Shown piece by piece: positions 24,930-35,329 of a stretch of 38,955 nt of DNA (positions are counted from its first letter, which is position 1; each line of letters opens with the position of its first letter). The stretch spans positions 487,063-526,017 of the forward strand of contig NZ_KK037166.1 of NCBI RefSeq assembly GCF_000568255.1, read 5' to 3'. The stretch is from Kutzneria sp. 744. GTDB taxonomy: Bacteria; Actinomycetota; Actinomycetes; Mycobacteriales; Pseudonocardiaceae. Made by a program: the position numbers and the translations under genes. The notes below the pieces were generated by a model that saw only the letters and a list, made by a program, of their open reading frames with translations, was not told the origin of the DNA and made no database searches.

Positions 24930-25259
24930 TCAGGTGTACTCGTGCTCAGCGTTGATCCGCTGCGCTTCGTGGAGCTGGTCTTCCAGGGTGATGATCCGAC
25001 AGGCCGCGCCCAGGGCCGTGCCCTGATCGACCAGCTCCCGCACCCGGGCGGCGATCCGCAGTTGGTGGCGGGAGTAGCGGCGATGCCCACCGGTCGAGCG
25101 CGCCGGCTCGATCAGCTCGGCCTCGTCCAGGCTCCGCAGAAAACCCGCCGTGGTGCCCAGCATCTCCGCGGCACGGCCCATGGTGTAGGCCGGGTAGTGC
25201 TCATCGTCGAACCTGTCGGCCGCACTCGCACCGGCCGCGTCTCGCTGACCAGGGATCAT
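24930..25259 (-). CDS. Small MerR-family transcriptional regulator
   Basis: The 109-residue protein has a MerR winged helix-turn-helix: YTMGRAAEMLGTTAGFLRSLDEAELIEPARSTGGHRRYSRHQL (about residues 25-67). A short dimerisation helix follows (GAACRIITLEDQLHEAQRINAE). It lacks Cys residues, so it is not a metal or thiol sensor of the classical type. It belongs to a common actinomycete group of minimal MerR proteins of unknown target. GGAGGCGCG precedes ATG 25259. A large hairpin lies immediately upstream in its leader (25277-25307). Confidence 0.92.
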   Translation of the reverse strand: MIPGQRDAAGASAADRFDDEHYPAYTMGRAAEMLGTTAGFLRSLDEAELIEPARSTGGHRRYSRHQLRIAARVRELVDQGTALGAACRIITLEDQLHEAQRINAEHEYT

Positions 25260-25276
25260 CGCGCCTCCACATCATG

Positions 25277-25307
25277 AGGGGCCCCGGCGCAGACAGCGCC
25301 GGGGCCC
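25277..25307 (-). terminator. Large hairpin in front of the merR gene (terminator or attenuator)
   Basis: GGGGCCCCGGCGC (25277-25289) and GCGCCGGGGCCCC (25295-25307) form a perfect 13-bp, all-GC stem with a 5-nt loop. It is only about 17 nt upstream of the merR start, overlapping the leader. It could terminate minus-strand transcription arriving from the repeat region or attenuate merR. Confidence 0.7.
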
Positions 25308-25526
25308 CAGGGGTTTGGGTTTGATCACCATCAACCGACCGAAAGATCGGCTTTCACTGTCCGCGTGGCCCGCCTGAGAGGCAGAACCCGCGGGGATCGC
25401 ATACGCGTGACCGAAGACCACCTTCCAATCCGATGGGACTGCGGCACCCGCCCGGCGCGACACAACCTGAAGCGGGCGATCCGACGGCGTGCAACCCTTC
25501 CCTTCTCCTCTGACTACCTCATACGC

Positions 25527-25612
25527 ACTGCGGATACTGCATGTACTGCGGATACAGCGACTTGCTGAACTGCGACTTGCTGAACTGCCACTCGCACTTG
25601 CCGAACTACTGC
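25527..25612. repeat. Cluster of short direct repeats
   Basis: ACTGCGGATAC occurs at 25527-25537 and 25545-25555. GACTTGCTGAACTGC occurs twice in perfect tandem (25559-25573, 25574-25588) and once in degenerate form (GCACTTGCCGAACTACTGC, about 25594-25612). Iterated short motifs like these can be protein-binding sites (iterons), or a small repeat expansion; which one is unknown. No gene is supported here. Confidence 0.75.
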
Positions 25613-25689
25613 GTGACTGTCGTGCTTGTCCTTTCACGACGACCACGTCTGAACCCCTTACCGAATTGGGCCCAGCACCTGACGCCGCT

Positions 25690-25786
25690 GGTCACCCACC
25701 AGAACCCCGTCCACTGATCGGCTCCGGCGCACCTGACCGTCTAACACTTCACTTGCGTCCCGCGGACAGGTCGAACATCGCCCGCG
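25690..25786 (-). repeat. Two-hairpin repeat element, copy R1
   Basis: Hairpin P1 (25690-25738) is 49 nt long: a 5-bp outer stem GGTCA/TGACC, asymmetric 2/4-nt internal loop, a 7-bp inner stem and a 19-nt loop. On the minus strand two inner-stem pairs are G-U where copy R2 has G-C, so the pairing survives only if the RNA is made from the minus strand. A weaker second hairpin P2 (CGCGG 25761-25765 with CCGCG 25782-25786) matches the P2 position of the other copies but its loop has diverged. Confidence 0.65.
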
Positions 25787-25872
25787 TCCTACTGTCGTGC
25801 CGTATGCGTTCGCAACTGCCATCACCGCGCGAGACCAGGTGAACAGTCTGGCCCCCTTCGGCTCACTGCCTC

Positions 25873-25960
25873 GGTCACCCGCCGGAACCCCTTCCACTGA
25901 CCGGCTCCGGCGCACCTGACCGTCTAGCCACTGCTCGCGGGTAGTTCGTCATCTCCCGCG
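25873..25960 (-). repeat. Two-hairpin repeat element, copy R2
   Basis: P1 (25873-25921, 49 nt) has GGTCA/TGACC and CGCCGGA/TCCGGCG stems, all pairs Watson-Crick, and the 19-nt loop ACCCC-T-C-CTGACCGGC shared with the other copies. P2 (25936-25960, 25 nt) has the stem CGCGGG/CCCGCG around the 13-nt loop TAGTTCGTCATCT. This is the cleanest copy; it starts 183 bp after R1. Confidence 0.72.
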
Positions 25961-26040
25961 TCGATCCCTCTTGCGTTTCTCTTTGCTTACGACCGTCCGC
26001 TGAGCCCTGGCGTATCTGCCCAGCACTACCACCGGTCCTT

Positions 26041-26129
26041 GGCCACCTACCGGAACCCCGTACCGTGATCGGCTCCGCTACGCCTGGCCGTCTTGCCTGT
26101 ACTCCACGGGTAGTTCGTCATCTCCCGTG
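26041..26129 (-). repeat. Two-hairpin repeat element, copy R3
   Basis: P1 (26041-26089, again 49 nt) has outer stem GGCCA/TGGCC, where a T-A pair of R2 became C-G. In its inner stem TACCGGA/TCCGCTA two pairs changed together and one mismatch remains. P2 (26105-26129) has CACGGG/CCCGTG, again a paired change, around the identical 13-nt loop TAGTTCGTCATCT. It starts 168 bp after R2 and lies 157 bp downstream of the minus-strand gene ending at 26286. Confidence 0.72.
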
Positions 26130-26285
26130 CCATCGGACGTTTTCTTCCCTCGTGCTGGGTAGAACACTACACACGCCCAAGGCCGAATGTCTACCCCGGT
26201 CACCATAGATTTGCTCGGACGGATGACCCACGTATGCCCCGACAGGCCACACGCGCCGCTGACCTGCGCAGACACCGACCGGCTC

Positions 26286-26714
26286 CTACGCCGGGGGCTC
26301 CTGCTGCGCCGCGAGCAGAGTGACCGTCCGACGCCGGTAGTCCACATCGGCCACCATCTGGTCCAGAACCCGCAGTGCCTCGGCCGCGTCCTGCGCCTGC
26401 ACCCTGTCCCGCACATACCGCGCCAACCCGACCAACTCCTCGGGCCAGCTGTCCCACGTGGCGCGGGCCGCCTCGATCAGCGGACCCAGATGCTCGGTGC
26501 TCCACTGCCCTTCCGCCCCTTCCCGGCCCGCCTCCGTCGCCGGGTGTTCGCCGTCCCCGCGCCACCCGCACGAACACGACGCGACAAAGCCCTGCAACGA
26601 GCTGGTCTCCTCGGTCCACCCCGCGCTGACCGTGCCATCGGCGAGCTTGCGCGCGGCATGCCCCTCATGGTCGTCGACCTGCTGCGCGTACGGACCGGTG
26701 TAACGGATACCCAT
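26286..26714 (-). CDS. Hypothetical protein with CSCGW motif
   Basis: The 142-residue protein begins MGIRYTGPYAQQVDDHEGHAA, and GGGAGGAAATC directly before ATG 26714 makes the start convincing. The middle has FVASCSCGWRGDGEHPATEAGREGAEGQWSTEHL, a CxCGW segment with a later His that could hold a metal. The end is a helical stretch with RRRTVTLLAAQQEPPA. I know similar hypothetical proteins from actinomycete accessory regions but no function. It is on the same strand as, and upstream of, the three hairpin elements, so a read-through transcript would carry them in its 3' region. Confidence 0.8.
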   Translation of the reverse strand: MGIRYTGPYAQQVDDHEGHAARKLADGTVSAGWTEETSSLQGFVASCSCGWRGDGEHPATEAGREGAEGQWSTEHLGPLIEAARATWDSWPEELVGLARYVRDRVQAQDAAEALRVLDQMVADVDYRRRTVTLLAAQQEPPA

Positions 26715-27586: not shown

Positions 27587-28236
27587 ACTAGTGTCCTGCG
27601 CCTAAAGTTCGTTGATTAATTGTAGGATTGACGGATGGCAGGTAGAGGCCGGCCGGTGGCCGCTGTGGTGTTAACCGACGAGGAACGCGAGACGCTTCAA
27701 CGGTGGGCGCGGCGGGCGAAGTCGTCGCAGGCATTGGCACAGCGATGCCGAATCGTGCTCGGGTGCGCGGCCGGCGGATCCAATCAGGACGTCGCCGCCG
27801 AGTTGGGGATCTGGCCGCAGACGGTGGGCAAGTGGCGACGACGGTTCCTGGACAGGCGCCTGGAGGGCTTGGTGGACGAGCCACGTCCGGGCGCCCCGCG
27901 CAAGATCACCGACGAGCAGGTCGAGGAACTGGTGGTGGCCACGCTGGAACGGACCCCGGCCGATGCCACGCACTGGTCGCGGACCTCGATGGCGGCCGAG
28001 AGCGGATTGTCCAAGTCGACGGTCGGACGGATCTGGAAGGCGTTCAACCTCAAGCCCCACCAGGTCGACACCTTCAAACTCAGCAACGATCCGCAGTTCG
28101 TCGACAAGGTCCGCGACGTCGTCGGGCTCTACCTGAATCCGCCCGACAAGGCGCTGGTCCTCTGCGTCGACGAGTTGGGTCGGACCGGGGCGCGTTGACG
28201 TCCTTACGAACGTTACGTTTCCCCGGCCCGCCCGCC

Positions 28237-28270
28237 GAACCGGACGTGCCCATTCCTGAGCATCCGGCTC
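28237..28270 (-). ncRNA. Group II intron domain V
   Basis: The minus strand reads GAGCCGGATG, CTCA, GGAA, TGGG, CACGTCCGGTTC in order: a 34-nt hairpin with the AGC catalytic triad, a GGAA tetraloop and the two-nucleotide bulge of domain V. It lies 22 nt after the maturase stop and 63 nt before the 3' splice site, the normal arrangement. Confidence 0.92.
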
Positions 28271-28292
28271 TCCACGAGCCCGTGTCAGCGGA

Positions 28293-29726
28293 TCACTTTG
28301 CTGGTTCTGGCGTTATGACTGCCCAGGGTGTAGGGATGTTGGCCGCCCGGTATCGGTAACGGCTGACCGTCACCGTCTGGGGCTGGAACAACGTCACCTC
28401 GTCCTCCGTCGGTCGCCACCCCGGAAGGTAACGGCGCATGAGGACGGCCCACTTCGTTTTGTTGTGCCGCTTACGAATCCACCGCACTACCCGATGCCAG
28501 GCGTAATCATCGAGGTAGTGGAAGGTCGCCTTCGACACACCATGACGGAAGTAGACGCACCAACCCCGCAGCACCAAGTTGAGTTGGCGCAGCAGGGCGG
28601 CAAGTGTTGGATGCGACGACCTGCGGGTCAGCGCGCGGACCCGCCCGACGATCGAGGCCAGCGCCTTCTTCGACGGGTAGGTGTAGACCACGCGCTTGTC
28701 CGTGCCCCGCTTCCGTTTCCGCTGGATGCGGAACCCGAGGAAGTCGAAGCCCTCATCGATGTGACAGACCCTCGTCTTGGCTGCCGACAACCGCAGGCCC
28801 ATCGGGGCCAACAGTCCGGCCACCACCTCCCGGAGGTCTTCGGCATGCCGCTTCGACCCGGACACCAGAACCACGAAATCGTCCGCGTAGCGAACGATCC
28901 GATAGGTGGCCGACCCCTTGCGGCGCGCCACGAACCGCCGATACGAGGTGCCGCTGGCCGCCCATGCCCGGGCGAAATGCTCGTCCAGGACTGACAGGGC
29001 GATGTTGGCCAGCAACGGAGACAGGATCCCGCCTTGGGGTGTGCCGGTACTGGTGTTCCTGACCACGCCGTCCTCGCTGAGGACGCCCGCATGCAGGAAC
29101 GCCTTCACCAGAGCCAGAACACGTTTGTCCCCGACCCGACCACGCACCCGGTCCATCAGGGCCGGGTGGTCGATCATGTCGAAGCACGCCTCGATGTCCC
29201 CTTCCAGGACCCACTCATACGAGCGGGACGTGAACTGGTGGATCTCCGCGATCGCATCCTGGGCCCGGCGCCGAGGACGGAAACCGTAGGAACACGGTTG
29301 GAAGTCCGCCTCGAAGATCGGCTCCAGTACCAGCTTCAGAGCCGCCTGCACGGTGCGGTCCCGCGCGGTCGGGATACCCAAGCGACGCAGATTCGCGCTG
29401 CCCGGCTTGGGGATCATCCGCTCCCGCACGGGCATCGGGTCGAACCGCCGCTCCCTGAGATCTCGCCTCAAGGTGGGCAGGAACCACTCCTCGGCGGCGA
29501 ACACGGCGTCCGGACGGACACCATCCACCCCCGCCGACCGCTTACCCTTGTTGCCCCTGACCCGCGTCCACGCCACAACGAGAACAGCCGGGTCACACAC
29601 CAAATTGAACACGTCGTCGAACCGGCGACCAGGACCATCGATCGCCCACTGATGCAGCTTGGTCTGGATCCGCAGTACCCGCGCCTCGGCCTCCTCGACC
29701 GTCGGCCACAGCACACCCGTATTCAC
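28293..29726 (-). CDS. ltrA: Group II intron reverse transcriptase/maturase
   Basis: The 477-residue protein has RT blocks RFDDVFNLVCDP (RT0), GNKGKRSAGVDGV (RT1), RRLGIPTARDRTVQAAL (RT2a/RT3 boundary), CSYGFRPRRRAQDA, GDIEACFDMIDH, GTPQGGILSPLLANI and the active-site YADD (280-283). The thumb/maturase domain X follows (LRQLNLVLRGWCVYFRHGVSKATFHYLDDYAWHRVVRWIRKRH). No HNH endonuclease motif is visible at the C-terminus (ends TPWAVITPEPAK), so it probably primes from nascent strands or uses an En-independent route. GTG 29726 is chosen because CAGGAGA lies upstream and NTGVLWPTVEEAEARV is the usual N-terminus; the long basic extension upstream is intron domain I-IV RNA read as protein. Confidence 0.95.
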   Translation of the reverse strand: MNTGVLWPTVEEAEARVLRIQTKLHQWAIDGPGRRFDDVFNLVCDPAVLVVAWTRVRGNKGKRSAGVDGVRPDAVFAAEEWFLPTLRRDLRERRFDPMPVRERMIPKPGSANLRRLGIPTARDRTVQAALKLVLEPIFEADFQPCSYGFRPRRRAQDAIAEIHQFTSRSYEWVLEGDIEACFDMIDHPALMDRVRGRVGDKRVLALVKAFLHAGVLSEDGVVRNTSTGTPQGGILSPLLANIALSVLDEHFARAWAASGTSYRRFVARRKGSATYRIVRYADDFVVLVSGSKRHAEDLREVVAGLLAPMGLRLSAAKTRVCHIDEGFDFLGFRIQRKRKRGTDKRVVYTYPSKKALASIVGRVRALTRRSSHPTLAALLRQLNLVLRGWCVYFRHGVSKATFHYLDDYAWHRVVRWIRKRHNKTKWAVLMRRYLPGWRPTEDEVTLFQPQTVTVSRYRYRAANIPTPWAVITPEPAK

Positions 29727-30893
29727 CGGTGATCTCCTGCCCTTCCGTTCCCATCGCCGCGGACTCGCTGCCGCCCTTCGCCATGTGGCCGGCTTTCCCG
29801 ACCTCGGACTACTACGACGGCTCCGCCACGCCCCGGCCCGCTCAGCCGACGACGAGCCTGCCCGCACCCGACCTGGACGGCCAGCACGCGGGACCAGCCC
29901 GGGACGCTTCCCACGTTCACCACACACCGGTCGACGGGGTCGGTGCCCAGCTTTGCCCCTGCGACATCGCCACGAGTACGCCGCAGCCTTTCCTCGCGGC
30001 CTCCCTGCCGGCGTCTTCACCCGGCCCGAAAGTCACCCGCCCTGTCCCGGACATCCGGTCAAGACAGGTGTGCGTCGCGCTCCGGCCCGCATCCGCCAGG
30101 TTGGAGCCGGTGTATCTCTTGAGAGGCTTTAACCGCTGGTTCCTCACGTACACCTTTCCGTCTCGCTAGGTGAGCCCGAGCCGTCTGGCAGTGCCGGCCC
30201 GTCTCCTCGTTGTCAGGGCTGCTCCCACCCTCCCCGGCGCCTCCCGGATCAGGCTGCCCTCAGCTTCATCGACCTGCTGCGACAGGACGACGGCGGAGGT
30301 CTCTCACCTCCACCCGATAGTGCAGCGCCTCGTGGCGCACGAAGTCGCAGATCCAGGCGCTGGACCGGTCCGCGCCGATGCTGCCGATGATGCCCGGCCT
30401 GCCGCAGCGCCGTACCCATGACTACATCCGGCACGGCATCACCACCCTGTTCGCCGCGCTCGACGTGGCCAGCGGCGAGGTGATCGGCTCCATCCACCGC
30501 CGTCACCGCGCGGTGGAGTTCAAGAAGTTCCTCACCACACTGGACAAGCAGGTGCCCGCCGACCTTGACGTGCACCTAATCTGCGACAACTACACCACCC
30601 ACAAACACCCCACGATCAACAAGTGGCTGGCCGCGCACCCCCGCTTCCACATGCACTTCACCCCGACCTACTCCTCCTGGCTCAACCAGGTGGAGCGATG
30701 GTTCGGCTTGCTGACCGACAAACGCCTGCGTCGAGCTGCGCACAAGTCCTTACGTGCACTGGAAAACGACATCCGCGACTGGATCACGACGTGGAACGCC
30801 GATCCCAGGCCGTTCGTGTGGACCAAGGACGCTGACGAGATCCTCGACCGCCTCGCCTCATATCTTGACCGAATTCCTGGCGCAGGACACTAG

Positions 30894-31564: not shown

Positions 31565-34500
31565 ATGACCGGGATCAACGTGCATCCTGACCACCTGCGC
31601 AGCTCCGGCGGCAAGCTGGCTGCGTTCGGCGGCAAGCTCGCCGACGGCGGCCAGAAGCTGGAAACAGCAGGCCAGAACCTGGTCTCCCACGCCAGCAGCG
31701 ACAGGTCCGGGATCGGCGCCGTTGTCGCCAAGGCCATGGGCGAAGGCGTGCAGATTACCGGCAAGGTCTTCGGCGAGGGCGGACGAGTCGTCGAAGGCGC
31801 CGGCAAGCGCCTGCACACCATGGCTGACCTGCACGAGGAGGCCGACCGGTCAGCCGCGAGCGCGCTGCGGAAGCACCACCCGGGCAGGGAAGGCAATATC
31901 GCCCCGCACGGTGGCGGAGTGCGCGCCGCCCGTCCGCTCGGACGGTCCTCCGGTCGAGACCGATCCGCGCGCAGCCACCTCGGCGGCAACCCGCGTGACC
32001 ACGCAGTCGACGTCAACGGTCGGACGCTCAGCGAAGACCCGATCGACTTCGCCTCCGGCGAGGTGATCCTGACGCAGACCGATGTCGAGTTGCCGGGTGT
32101 CCTGCCCCTGGTGCTCAGCCGCACGCATGTCTCCTCCTACCGAGTGGGGCGAAGCTTCGGCCCTGCCTGGGCGTCCACAGTGGACCAGCGGCTCGAGGTC
32201 GATGGCGAAGGCGTGGTGTTCGTCGCTGCCGACGGTGTCCTGCTCGCCTACCCGACGCCACAGGACGAGGCGGTGCTTCCCGAAGAGGGGGCCCGGTGGC
32301 CACTGCGGCGGACGGTGGACGGATACCTTCTCGACAAGCCGGAATTCGCGGAGCACCTGCGTTTCGACGTCGATGGGACACTGCGGTCGATGGGCGATCG
32401 TCGGGGCCACGACATCGACTTCGTACGCGCCGCAGATGGCACGCTGACCCAGATCCGGCACTCCGGCGGGTACGTCGTCGGTGTCGAGGCCGCGGACGGC
32501 CTGATCACCGGCCTTTCGGTCGAGGGTCGACCGCTGGCGCGGTTCGGCTACGACAACGATCGGCTGGCCGAGGTGGTCAACGGATCGGGACAGCCGCTGC
32601 GGCTGCACTACGACGCCGACGGCCGGCTCGCGCAGTGGGTCGACCGTAACGGCATGTGGTACCGGTACCACTACGACAACACGGGCCGCTGCATCCTGGC
32701 AGAAGGCGCGGACGGCAATCTGACCTGCGCCCTTGACTACGACCGGGACAACCGCGTCACGTCGGCCACCGACTCGCAGGGCCATGTCACCCTGTACCAG
32801 TTCAACCAGGCCCGTCAGATCGTCTCGGTGATCGACCCGTTGGGCGCGCGGACGGTGTCCGAATGGGATCGCTACGACCGCCTGTTGTCGCGGACCGATC
32901 CGCTGGGGCACACAACGCGGCTGGAGTACACCGAGAACGGCGATGTCGCCCGGGTTACCAGGCCTGATGGTTCACAGGTGCTGGCCGAGCACAACGATCT
33001 CCGGCTGCCGGCCGTGGTCGTCGAGCCGGACGGGGCAGTGTGGCGCCGCGAGTACGACGATGTGGGCAATCTCGTCACTGTGACCGACCCGGCCGGCGGC
33101 GTCACCCGCTACACCTATGACGATTCCCATCATCTGGCCGCGATGACGGACGCTCGCGGCGCGGTCACCTCTGTCGAATGCGACGCCGCCGGGCTGCCCA
33201 TCGCGGTCACCGATCCGCTGGGCGCACGCACCCGTTACGAACGCGACCGCCTCGGACGGGTCACCACGGTTGTCGATCCGCTCGGCGGCGTCACACGCCT
33301 GGAGTGGACCGGTGACGGTCAGCTCGCCACACGGGTCCACCCCGACGGATCGATCGTGCGTTGGACCTACGACGGCGAGGGCAATGAGATCGAACGCGTC
33401 GACCCGCACGGTGCGCTCACCCGCACCGACTACCGCGGGTTCGACATGCCGGCCGCGACCATCGACGCCACCGGCGCCCGCACCGAATACCACTACGACA
33501 CCGAGCAGCGCCTTGCGTCGATCACCAACCCGGCCGGCCTTGTCTGGCGGTACGAGTACGACGCCGCCGGCCACCTGGTCGGCGAGACCGACTTCGATGG
33601 CCGGTCGACCCGCTACGGCCGGGACGCGACTGGACGCATGGCGTCGCGCACCAACGCGCTGGGCCAGACCACGACCTTCGTCCGGGACGCCTTGGGCCGC
33701 GTCGTCGAGCGGCATGCGATCGACGGCATCACGACCTTCGGCTACGACGCGGCCGATCGCGTCCTGTGGGCGACCAACACCGACGCCGACCTGACCCTGA
33801 CCTACGACTCGCTGGGCAATGTCCTCACCGAGACGTGCAACGGACGCACGCTCACGTCGACCTACGACCCACTCGGCCACAAGACCACCCGCACCACTGC
33901 CTCCGGAGCCGTCTCGCGGTGGCGCTACGACGCCGCGGGCCAGCCTCTCGCCCTGACGGCGGCGGGCGCGACGTTGACCTTCGGCTACGACCCGGCCGGC
34001 CGCGAGATCAACCGGCGGGTCGGCGCGCTCAGCCTGAGCCAGACCTGGGATGCCGCACACCGCCTGCATACCCAAGCACTCACCGTGCCTGCCCCGGACA
34101 ATCGCCCCCATCTGATCCAGCGACGTGCCTACACCTACCGCGCCGACGGCGCGGTGACGAACGTCGTCGACCAGATCGGCGGCGTGCGCACCTACGAGCT
34201 CGACCAGCTCGGACGCGCCGCCAGGGTCATCGCGGCCGATGTCGACGAGCGCTACGACTACGACCCCAGTGGCAACGTCGGCGGGCCGACTCGCGAGCAC
34301 GTCGGTACGTTGGTCCGCGCCGCAGGCCTGATCCGCTACGAGCACGACGCGCAGGGGCGGATCATCGCGCGGCACAGCCGAACCCTGTCCGGGCAGCGGC
34401 GAACCTGGCGATACGCGTGGAACTCCGACGATCAGCTCGTCGCGGTGAGCACACCTGACGGTGTCACCTGGCGGTATCTCTACGACCCGCTCGGCCGTCG

Positions 34501-35329
34501 CATCGCGAAACTGCGCCTGACCGCCGACAACCACGTCGCCGAGCGCACCGACTTCTGTTGGGACGGCACGACAGTGGTCGAGCAGGCGCACTCCGGCGGA
34601 CTGACGACGACTTGGGACTATCAGCCGGGCGAACACGTGCCGCTCACCCAGACCGAGCGCGACGCGACCAACCAGAGGTTCTACGCGATCGTCACGGACA
34701 TGCTCGGCACACCAACGGAACTGGTCGAGGCCAACGGACGCCTGGCCTGGCGCCAGGCGACCACCCTGTGGGGCGAGCAGCTCGCCCCGTACGCGCCGGG
34801 CGCATACTGCCCGCTGCGGTTTCCCGGCCAGTACCACGACGTCGAAACCGGTCAGAACTACAACCTGCACCGGTATTACGACCCTACGGCCGGCAGTTAC
34901 GCCAGCGACGACCCGCTCGGCGCGGACGGCGGTCCCAATCCTCACGCCTACGTGCCCAACCCGATGGACTGGTCCGATCCGCTCGGCCTCACGCCGTGTC
35001 CGAAGGGACGGTGGAAGGCTAGGGCGGACTTCTCACACAAGGGCACGATGAGCAAGAAGTACGATGCCCACGCCGCGGACTTCGGCGTCACCGGCAACCG
35101 GAGCAACGCGACCCTCGCACAGTTCGAGCAGGCCATGAAGAACCACATGACGGACCCGGACACCAAGATCTACCGGTACAACTATCGCGGGCAGGGTCCG
35201 GCGGTGGGCTTCATCAACCCGACCAGCCACAAGATGGTCATGCTGCACACCGACGGCAAGTTCTGGTCGGCGTACCAGTTGGGCGACAATCAGTTCATGA
35301 ACATTGTCCACAAGGGATTCCTATGGTGA
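31565..35329 (+). CDS. WXG-led RHS/YD-repeat polymorphic toxin with colicin-D-like C-terminus
   Basis: The 1254-residue protein has three parts. Residues 1-100 are a helical WXG100-like/ESX-type leader (HPDHLRSSGGKLAAFGGKLADGG), with no signal peptide. A DUF6531 block (DPIDFASGEVILTQTDVELPG) opens a long series of YD repeats (for example RYHYDNTGRCI, RYEYDAAGHLVGETD), closed by the RHS core end YYDPTAGSYASDDPLGADGG and PMDWSDPLGL. The last 108 residues (SKKYDAHAADFGVTGN, FINPTSHKMVMLHTDGKFWSAYQLGDNQFMN) resemble the colicin D tRNA-Arg nuclease, H1169 matching its likely active-site His. It should be exported by a type VII-like route and kill competitors by tRNA cleavage. No obvious ribosome binding site precedes ATG 31565. 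The next gene overlaps it. Confidence 0.9.
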   Translation: MTGINVHPDHLRSSGGKLAAFGGKLADGGQKLETAGQNLVSHASSDRSGIGAVVAKAMGEGVQITGKVFGEGGRVVEGAGKRLHTMADLHEEADRSAASALRKHHPGREGNIAPHGGGVRAARPLGRSSGRDRSARSHLGGNPRDHAVDVNGRTLSEDPIDFASGEVILTQTDVELPGVLPLVLSRTHVSSYRVGRSFGPAWASTVDQRLEVDGEGVVFVAADGVLLAYPTPQDEAVLPEEGARWPLRRTVDGYLLDKPEFAEHLRFDVDGTLRSMGDRRGHDIDFVRAADGTLTQIRHSGGYVVGVEAADGLITGLSVEGRPLARFGYDNDRLAEVVNGSGQPLRLHYDADGRLAQWVDRNGMWYRYHYDNTGRCILAEGADGNLTCALDYDRDNRVTSATDSQGHVTLYQFNQARQIVSVIDPLGARTVSEWDRYDRLLSRTDPLGHTTRLEYTENGDVARVTRPDGSQVLAEHNDLRLPAVVVEPDGAVWRREYDDVGNLVTVTDPAGGVTRYTYDDSHHLAAMTDARGAVTSVECDAAGLPIAVTDPLGARTRYERDRLGRVTTVVDPLGGVTRLEWTGDGQLATRVHPDGSIVRWTYDGEGNEIERVDPHGALTRTDYRGFDMPAATIDATGARTEYHYDTEQRLASITNPAGLVWRYEYDAAGHLVGETDFDGRSTRYGRDATGRMASRTNALGQTTTFVRDALGRVVERHAIDGITTFGYDAADRVLWATNTDADLTLTYDSLGNVLTETCNGRTLTSTYDPLGHKTTRTTASGAVSRWRYDAAGQPLALTAAGATLTFGYDPAGREINRRVGALSLSQTWDAAHRLHTQALTVPAPDNRPHLIQRRAYTYRADGAVTNVVDQIGGVRTYELDQLGRAARVIAADVDERYDYDPSGNVGGPTREHVGTLVRAAGLIRYEHDAQGRIIARHSRTLSGQRRTWRYAWNSDDQLVAVSTPDGVTWRYLYDPLGRRIAKLRLTADNHVAERTDFCWDGTTVVEQAHSGGLTTTWDYQPGEHVPLTQTERDATNQRFYAIVTDMLGTPTELVEANGRLAWRQATTLWGEQLAPYAPGAYCPLRFPGQYHDVETGQNYNLHRYYDPTAGSYASDDPLGADGGPNPHAYVPNPMDWSDPLGLTPCPKGRWKARADFSHKGTMSKKYDAHAADFGVTGNRSNATLAQFEQAMKNHMTDPDTKIYRYNYRGQGPAVGFINPTSHKMVMLHTDGKFWSAYQLGDNQFMNIVHKGFLW

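Follow-up and report, generated by a model that had tools for sequence, protein, structure and literature searches.

A conserved structured RNA, a candidate leader, upstream of a small MerR-type regulator gene in actinobacteria

Background

The window analysed here is a stretch of 38,955 nucleotides (positions 487063-526017) from the 11.65-Mb single-contig genome of Kutzneria sp. 744. It contains three tandem copies of a hairpin-rich repeat. In a preliminary description made from this sequence, the repeats were placed at 25690-26129, read as structured RNA of the minus strand with compensatory base changes, and explained by selection for dosage or by mobile spread. The locus raises the question of whether such repeats function as RNA, as DNA or as a mobile element, and of which gene, if any, they belong to.

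The features that were identified are listed below in 5' to 3' order on the minus strand, with the source of each in brackets.

26187-26212, minus strand: operator-like inverted repeat AAATCT-N12-GTAGACAT over the -35 region (exact second copy in the genome; 108 of 110 loci)
26164-26193, minus strand: promoter-like -35 TAGACA, 18-nt spacer and -10 TAGTGT (read from the sequence; similar letters in relatives)
26105-26129, minus strand: P2 hairpin of R3, the first unit of the RNA (repeat search, folding, unit alignment)
26041-26089, minus strand: P1 hairpin of R3 (repeat search, folding, unit alignment)
25936-25960, minus strand: P2 hairpin of R2 (repeat search, folding, unit alignment)
25873-25921, minus strand: P1 hairpin of R2 (repeat search, folding, unit alignment)
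about 25761-25786, minus strand: degenerate P2 of R1 (sequence; clear in three close relatives)
25690-25738, minus strand: P1 hairpin of R1 (repeat search, folding, unit alignment)
about 25634-25686, minus strand: fourth, degenerate P1-like hairpin (by eye; resembles the P1-only class)
25309-25506, minus strand: closing helix of domain B, irregular, with its 5' strand at about 25483-25506 and its 3' strand at about 25309-25332 (swap test)
25322-25492, minus strand: domain B, a conserved branched RNA core with 39 modelled pairs (covariance model R2)
25278-25308, minus strand: terminator-like hairpin with 13-bp perfect arms and no T tract here (inverted-repeat search)
24930-25259, minus strand: MerR-type regulator gene, 109 aa plus stop (Pfam, structure model)

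Results and discussion

The tandem hairpins of the window

A repeat search of the window identified one three-copy family, at 25690, 25873 and 26041. These are the P1 positions already reported, with the same spacing of 183 and 168. The copies at 25873 and 26041 are 93% and 78% identical to R1, and a 21-nt P2 core is identical at 25938 and 26107. Each of the units R1 to R3 consists of P2 followed by P1, 5' to 3' on the minus strand, and all five P1 and P2 hairpins fold. For the three copies of P1, the folding energy is -23.2, -27.3 and -23.4 kcal/mol on the minus strand versus -10.4, -19.7 and -13.7 on the plus strand. P2 is about equal on both strands, slightly better on the plus (-11.6 and -10.1 versus -11.1 and -9.6 kcal/mol).

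Some of the preliminary description has to be redrawn. R2 and R3 do share P2, but R1 does not lack it, having instead the degenerate copy at about 25761-25786. Within the window, the P1-like hairpin at about 25634-25686 was picked up by neither the profile nor the covariance model. The element reaches well beyond both 25690 and 26129, and the minus-strand gene that had been placed upstream is the MerR gene at 24930-25259, which lies downstream of the RNA. Rather than dosage or mobile spread, the hairpins are better described as a variable array inside the leader of a MerR gene that is probably autoregulated.

Array units in related genomes

The covariance model of the array (model R1, distinct from repeat copy R1) was built from 23 units. 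In their alignment 95.0% of cells are paired, compared with 89.2% in shuffles that leave the kinship among the sequences in place. Cells compensated on both sides number 36 versus 11.1 after shuffling, with none of 500 shuffles reaching 36, and two-sided changes occur in 9 pairs versus 5.1, a figure reached by 2 of 500 shuffles. Slid controls drop to 32-47% paired. Across 129 hits aligned to the model, two-sided changes are present in 20 of the 21 pairs. On the minus strand, stem G-U pairs outnumber A-C by 46 to 3 and 47 to 10, and P1 has internal loops and loops of variable length.

Using blastn, the 541-nt array region matched 18 of 60 genomes, the window's genome being counted. Short matches at L004, L016-L021 and L027 have no unit-profile hit and are likely to be due to chance. 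Units are present in all 19 of the fuller loci (18 fetched and the window), and in 16 of these a small MerR gene is downstream on the same strand, the exceptions being L039, L044 and L045. A search with the MerR protein identified 407 relatives, from which the best 80 were kept. Model R1 has hits (E up to 0.1) at 74 of these 80 loci, in every case upstream and on the MerR strand, with 0 to 3 hits per locus; two of the six loci without hits are contigs cut short. At 29 loci found through domain B, array hits with E up to 0.01 were on the MerR strand in four (L161, L166, L175 and L177) and on the other strand in L174. With so few hits, the array is absent or much weaker at the majority of these 29, nearly all of the array-poor ones being outside the window's family. 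Of 110 loci, 79 have a P2-like hairpin after the operator, versus 10 after shuffling; two of the 110, which have no operator, were left out of the trial. Neither the phage nor the plasmid collection contained a blastn match to a 601-nt array region.

The covariance-model search, which had been suggested at the outset, therefore found homologues with preserved pairing, most of them with the MerR gene downstream. Together with the G-U excess and the lack of a gathering-level Rfam match, this bears out the reading of the repeats as structured RNA of the minus strand with compensatory changes.

A branched core nearer the gene

In the approximately 290 nt ahead of the MerR start, conservation is wider than that of the array. 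This region includes domain B, for which a structure of 39 pairs was drawn by hand on a MAFFT alignment of 22 sequences. It is branched, with nested helices. In the 22 sequences 95.6% of cells are paired, 13 pairs have changes on both sides, and 45 cells are compensated versus 15.4 in shuffles (0 of 500 as high); slid controls are 27-41% paired. When 80 sequences were aligned to the model, which leans the alignment towards the structure, two-sided changes were seen in 26 of the 39 pairs. The window's domain B scores 164.7 bits with model R2, its sequence being part of the training set.

The closing helix of domain B, PB0, was assessed by exchanging its strands between loci. With short flanks the native energy is -7.45 versus -7.31 and 50 of 200 swaps are as good, which is not significant. 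With long flanks it is -17.8 versus -15.1 kcal/mol for swapped strands and none of 300 swaps is as good; here 80 distinct pairs were used from the 110 loci, 18 having no landmark and 12 being dropped as repeats or as too short. In subsets of the long-flank swap, 0 of 300 were as good in 55 near pairs and 10 of 300 in 25 class-level pairs. RNAalifold gave a poor consensus on the whole leader, probably from misalignment. Since domain B can be found without the array, as in L224, the array is seen as an add-on, and its variable copy number suits a role in binding or titration.

An open frame recurs in domain B. It reads ...GRVPQSHRIGRW... and groups as an ORF cluster at 37 of the 80 loci, with 49 motif matches. 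In the plus orientation, frame 0 is open in 50 of the 80 copies of domain B versus about 16 in shuffles, which by itself would favour coding. However, the lengths of domain B fall into all three classes modulo 3 (48, 19 and 13 of 80), the printed stretches share no start or length, and pairing explains the conservation; coding was rejected on these grounds. The preliminary description had named loss of pairing among homologues and a conserved coding frame as possible objections, and what is found is homologues that keep the pairing and a recurrent frame without fixed start, length or indel phase.

At gathering score, the only Rfam 15 match in the whole window is a group II intron at 28174-28272. 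Positions 25300-26300 have no match up to E 5. Ten related loci, searched up to E 1, have none at gathering score, with weak hits of 23.3 and 20.7 bits against gathering scores of 48 and 39. A resemblance of GGUACCGC to the T-box, seen by eye, was dropped because Rfam gave no T-box hit. No paper naming the RNA or the MerR leader came up in the literature searches made, and the absence is claimed for those searches alone. They covered portions of sources that include PMC12096830, PMC10148868 and PMC6009599; the portion consulted of PMC7157519, on RNA-based phage replication, held nothing relevant. For S. clavuligerus, 150 premature transcription units, 96 of them novel, are given in the portion consulted of PMC8269248. 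We call the RNA a new family of leader or regulatory kind, with an unusual partner and architecture.

The hairpin before the MerR gene

In the window 18 nt separate the end of the terminator-like hairpin from the MerR start. Counting G-U as paired, 97 of 110 loci have a GC-rich hairpin with unbroken arms of at least 12 bp within the 95 nt that precede MerR; shuffles reach 12-bp arms in 1 of 110. Five T are present in the ten bases after the hairpin in 10 of the 110 loci, with fewer in the other 100. A T run follows the hairpin in the stand-alone copy L039. The same is true of L225, a diverged homologue with a leader and an operator-like site at 4 mismatches. Streptomyces terminators without T tracts exist. 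No mutually exclusive antiterminator was found.

The operator and its sites

The inverted repeat over the -35 region is likely to be the binding site of the MerR protein. At a distance of 303-1016 nt upstream of MerR, 108 of 110 loci have it with 2 or fewer mismatches (exact in 85, one mismatch in 21, two in 2), while reversed controls have 4-7 mismatches. The two loci without it must be L057 and L059, in which only 148 nt upstream could be scanned. An exact-match search of the window's genome found the operator twice, once per module, the window's copy being at G000:C1:513249-513274. Two more sites with 2 mismatches have no recognised relation to the modules.

The core pattern AATCT-N13-TAGACAT has 54 exact sites in 120 genomes of the family, and the reversed pattern has none. 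When places were compared by eye, 48 of the 54 are at RNA modules, and 5 have a MerR homologue downstream at no more than about 320 nt. The only one with neither MerR nor RNA nearby is in L209, near base 2297. With 53 of 54 core sites at a module or a MerR gene, the strict site is nearly confined to genes of its own kind.

Five diverged MerR loci (L228, L232, L234, L235 and L236) have a common promoter motif, TTGACACAATCTACAGTC, followed by GCGCTATAAG-like letters, read by eye on the other strand. This motif contains the AATCTAC half-site of the module operator.

Distribution, and copies without MerR

Domain B is just upstream of MerR and on its strand at all of the best 80 of the 407 relatives, a set picked through MerR. 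Genome scans with model R2, made without use of the protein, found the RNA in 58 genomes of 296 at class level, in 49 of the 150 scanned from the window's family, and in 60 of the 81 sampled from the family that includes G260, inferred to be Streptomycetaceae. Across the phylum it was found in 3 of 119 genomes, the window's own and two of G260's family. There are up to 7 copies per genome. At the 39 best matches of the RNA search, the window's included (L160-L198), MerR is just downstream on the same strand in every case. It is present in 35 of 40 further matches, one of these (L271) being a partial profile match; many of the 40 are second copies in multi-copy genomes and some repeat loci fetched through MerR. 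A mobile, REP-like family would be expected as dispersed copies in free gene context, and what is seen is MerR following in 80 of 80, 39 of 39 and 35 of 40. The arrangement is that of a cis leader, a conserved non-coding structured RNA between promoter and gene on the same strand, the promoter being read from sequence only.

Eight copies of the RNA are without MerR, and every genome that hosts one also has MerR-bearing copies. L039, L044 and L045 are complete stand-alone copies, and the others are the five from the 40 further matches (L238, L239, L266, L267 and L272). These RNAs are still well paired. Their R2 scores in the window's family are 125-149 bits versus 115-149 for MerR-bearing copies, and in the Streptomyces-like genomes 31-77 versus 31-79. 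The operator is exact in L238, L239 and L272 and has one mismatch in L267; exact core sites are present at L039 and L045. L266 has no recognisable operator, the best site having 6 mismatches. By eye, L238 has an apparent decayed MerR start. A profile search of L044 and L045 gave no convincing trace of MerR. Two of the MerR-less copies, both in G027, are very similar. The reverse case, MerR genes with the operator and without the RNA, is found in L210-L212, and L224 is the one locus with domain B among 14 MerR homologues that are more diverged.

A second complete module, with operator, array, domain B and MerR, is present on the window's chromosome 9.8 Mb away (L032, G000:C1:10313361-10314473). 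L223, in the inferred Mycobacteriaceae-like genome G042, has a shortened leader. Its operator has 2 mismatches, and the array model scores 18.9 bits on the strand of MerR; by eye, domain B is abridged and a long hairpin precedes MerR, and the only R2 hits are weak and on the other strand.

The MerR protein and its neighbours

Searches with the MerR protein used 24936-25259, without the last codon and the stop. It matches MerR_1 (PF13411) with 47.3 bits against a cut-off of 21.6. The structure model has a pLDDT of 83; its nearest solved folds are GlnR and TnrA, with matches to GlnR, TnrA, NmlR and TipAL at E up to 0.001. The model is that of an effector-less MerR fold. HspR (NF047375) is the best NCBIfam model, at 48.9 bits versus a curated cut-off of 105, which it does not reach.

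Hsp20 genes are near 9 of the 14 diverged MerR homologues, and all eight of those nine neighbours that were checked with Pfam are HSP20. A search of 162 loci, some of them overlapping, found Hsp20 near nine RNA-bearing loci: L042 (partial), L044, L049, L058, L071, L076, L107, L120 and L129. A cold-shock gene is near 10 of 119 loci (partial in L042), and six of the ten fall among eight chosen Streptomyces-like loci. These six (L215, L217, L218, L219, L221 and L222) have the cold-shock gene and a DEAD-box RNA helicase within 7 kb, surroundings that look like one shared neighbourhood. At both modules of the window's genome, no Hsp20 or cold-shock gene is present in the DNA examined. Temperature or protein-folding stress is favoured as the signal because the protein is HspR-like and some copies have Hsp20 or cold-shock neighbours; these point to it as a hint.

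A MerR homologue is found by tblastn on 100 plasmid records. Of four plasmid loci that were read, the three from Streptomyces all have domain B and the one from Rhodococcus has an array hit without it. The phage collection has no match.

Leader RNA or free RNA

Comparison among homologues shows the fold of the RNA, its strand, its association with the gene, the nearly private operator and the hairpin before MerR. We propose, with about even confidence, that the RNA is the leader of an autoregulated MerR module in which a terminator-gated RNA controls MerR. In this proposal transcription, termination, the direction of control and the signal are all predicted. A structured RNA of approximately 0.3 to 0.95 kb would be transcribed from the minus strand as the leader of the small regulator. 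MerR would bind the inverted repeat at the promoter and control its own transcript. Transcription would cross the P2/P1 array, with none to several units, then domain B, then the strong terminator-like hairpin, where most transcripts would end. A particular folding or binding of domain B, with the array, would allow read-through, so that MerR is made. With MerR acting on its own promoter and the RNA acting at the terminator, the RNA would gate MerR and MerR would gate the RNA.

The eight MerR-less copies, with their comparable scores, count against a pure cis leader, because such a leader should decay there. The leader proposal is also weakened by the MerR genes that have the operator alone (L210-L212), by domain B being confined to L224 among the 14 diverged homologues, by the scarcity of T after the hairpin, by the lack of an antiterminator, by the few array hits at the 29 loci found through domain B, one of them on the other strand, and by the lack of Hsp20 and cold-shock genes at the two modules of the window's genome. 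It is possible that the RNA may also act free, to which we give a weight not much below that of the leader. The RNA would then be a trans-acting non-coding RNA with MerR as its dedicated regulator, made by read-through, and the conserved-loop hairpins would titrate a protein by analogy with CsrB. This is a credible alternative, if on the doubtful side. It would account for the stand-alone L039, L044 and L045 and the five others of the 40, for operators kept at L238, L239, L272, L267, L039 and L045, for pairing that stays good without MerR, for the variable number of array units, and for an RNA that ends in a terminator-like hairpin. It fits less well with MerR directly after most copies examined, with the decayed-looking MerR at L238 or with the lack of an operator at L266; from these last two, some stand-alone RNAs may be recent relics. 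A broader form of the idea seems unlikely: that this is a widespread actinobacterial family of trans-acting RNAs, probably multi-hairpin protein sponges in heat or cold stress, each normally packaged with its own MerR repressor, the stand-alone RNA genes under the same operator forming an all-RNA regulon of that MerR.

That the element spread as a mobile or selfish repeat, REP-like or MITE-like, is very improbable. Up to 7 copies in a genome, MerR homologues on 100 plasmid records and the near-alike pair of MerR-less copies in G027 could be taken that way, but most copies examined have one architecture and one strand relative to MerR, and the 601-nt array region is unmatched by blastn in phages and plasmids. 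It is hardly credible that the inverted repeats act as DNA, bound by MerR or another dimeric protein with the transcript irrelevant. Palindromic DNA sites with symmetric changes would also seem compensatory, inverted repeats are the targets of MerR proteins, and P2 alone folds about equally on either strand. However, double-stranded DNA does not explain an excess of G-U over A-C on one strand (46:3 and 47:10), nor a domain B that is branched with nested helices, nor the internal loops and variable loop lengths of P1.

Comparison with known systems

Riboswitch and attenuator leaders likewise have a structured RNA between promoter and gene, on the same strand, with a terminator-like hairpin before the gene. 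This RNA differs from them in having no gathering-level Rfam match, an optional hairpin array, a nearly private operator and MerR-less copies. The sponge RNAs CsrB and RsmZ also have repeated conserved-loop hairpins in variable number. Their loops are GGA, whereas the loop letters are different here, the RNA precedes a MerR gene, and there is an extra branched core domain. HspR shares the effector-less MerR fold and is the best NCBIfam model, and diverged relatives of the present MerR adjoin Hsp20. However, the score of 48.9 bits is below the cut-off of 105, and the operator is AAATCT-N12-GTAGACAT rather than the HAIR sequence that is the operator of HspR. BldC of Streptomyces, likened here by its general features, is also a short MerR protein without an effector domain, but it binds direct repeats and the site here is an inverted repeat.

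The RNA is large and strongly conserved, is matched by no Rfam 15 family, and occurs in 60 of 81 sampled genomes of the inferred Streptomycetaceae and, within the window's family, in 49 of 150. Function is open to direct tests in Streptomyces, a tractable model. The pairing of an RNA with a MerR whose strict sites are almost only at its own modules and genes is unusual, and the stand-alone copies turn cis versus trans action into a clean question.

Other features of the window

Adjoining the module is a 142-aa protein (26286-26714, minus strand) with no Pfam match, which is kept beside the module in two of the related loci that were read, L033 and L034. The group II intron RNA end at 28174-28272 (RF00029, 51.8 bits, minus strand) adjoins an ORF for an intron-encoded reverse transcriptase/maturase at 28293-30020 (minus strand). 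A 171-aa ORF at 30378-30893 (plus strand) has a match to the DDE_3 transposase family that begins at profile position 22. At 31565-35329 (plus strand) is a 1254-aa RHS-repeat protein with a C-terminal Colicin_D-type domain, which looks like an interbacterial polymorphic toxin.
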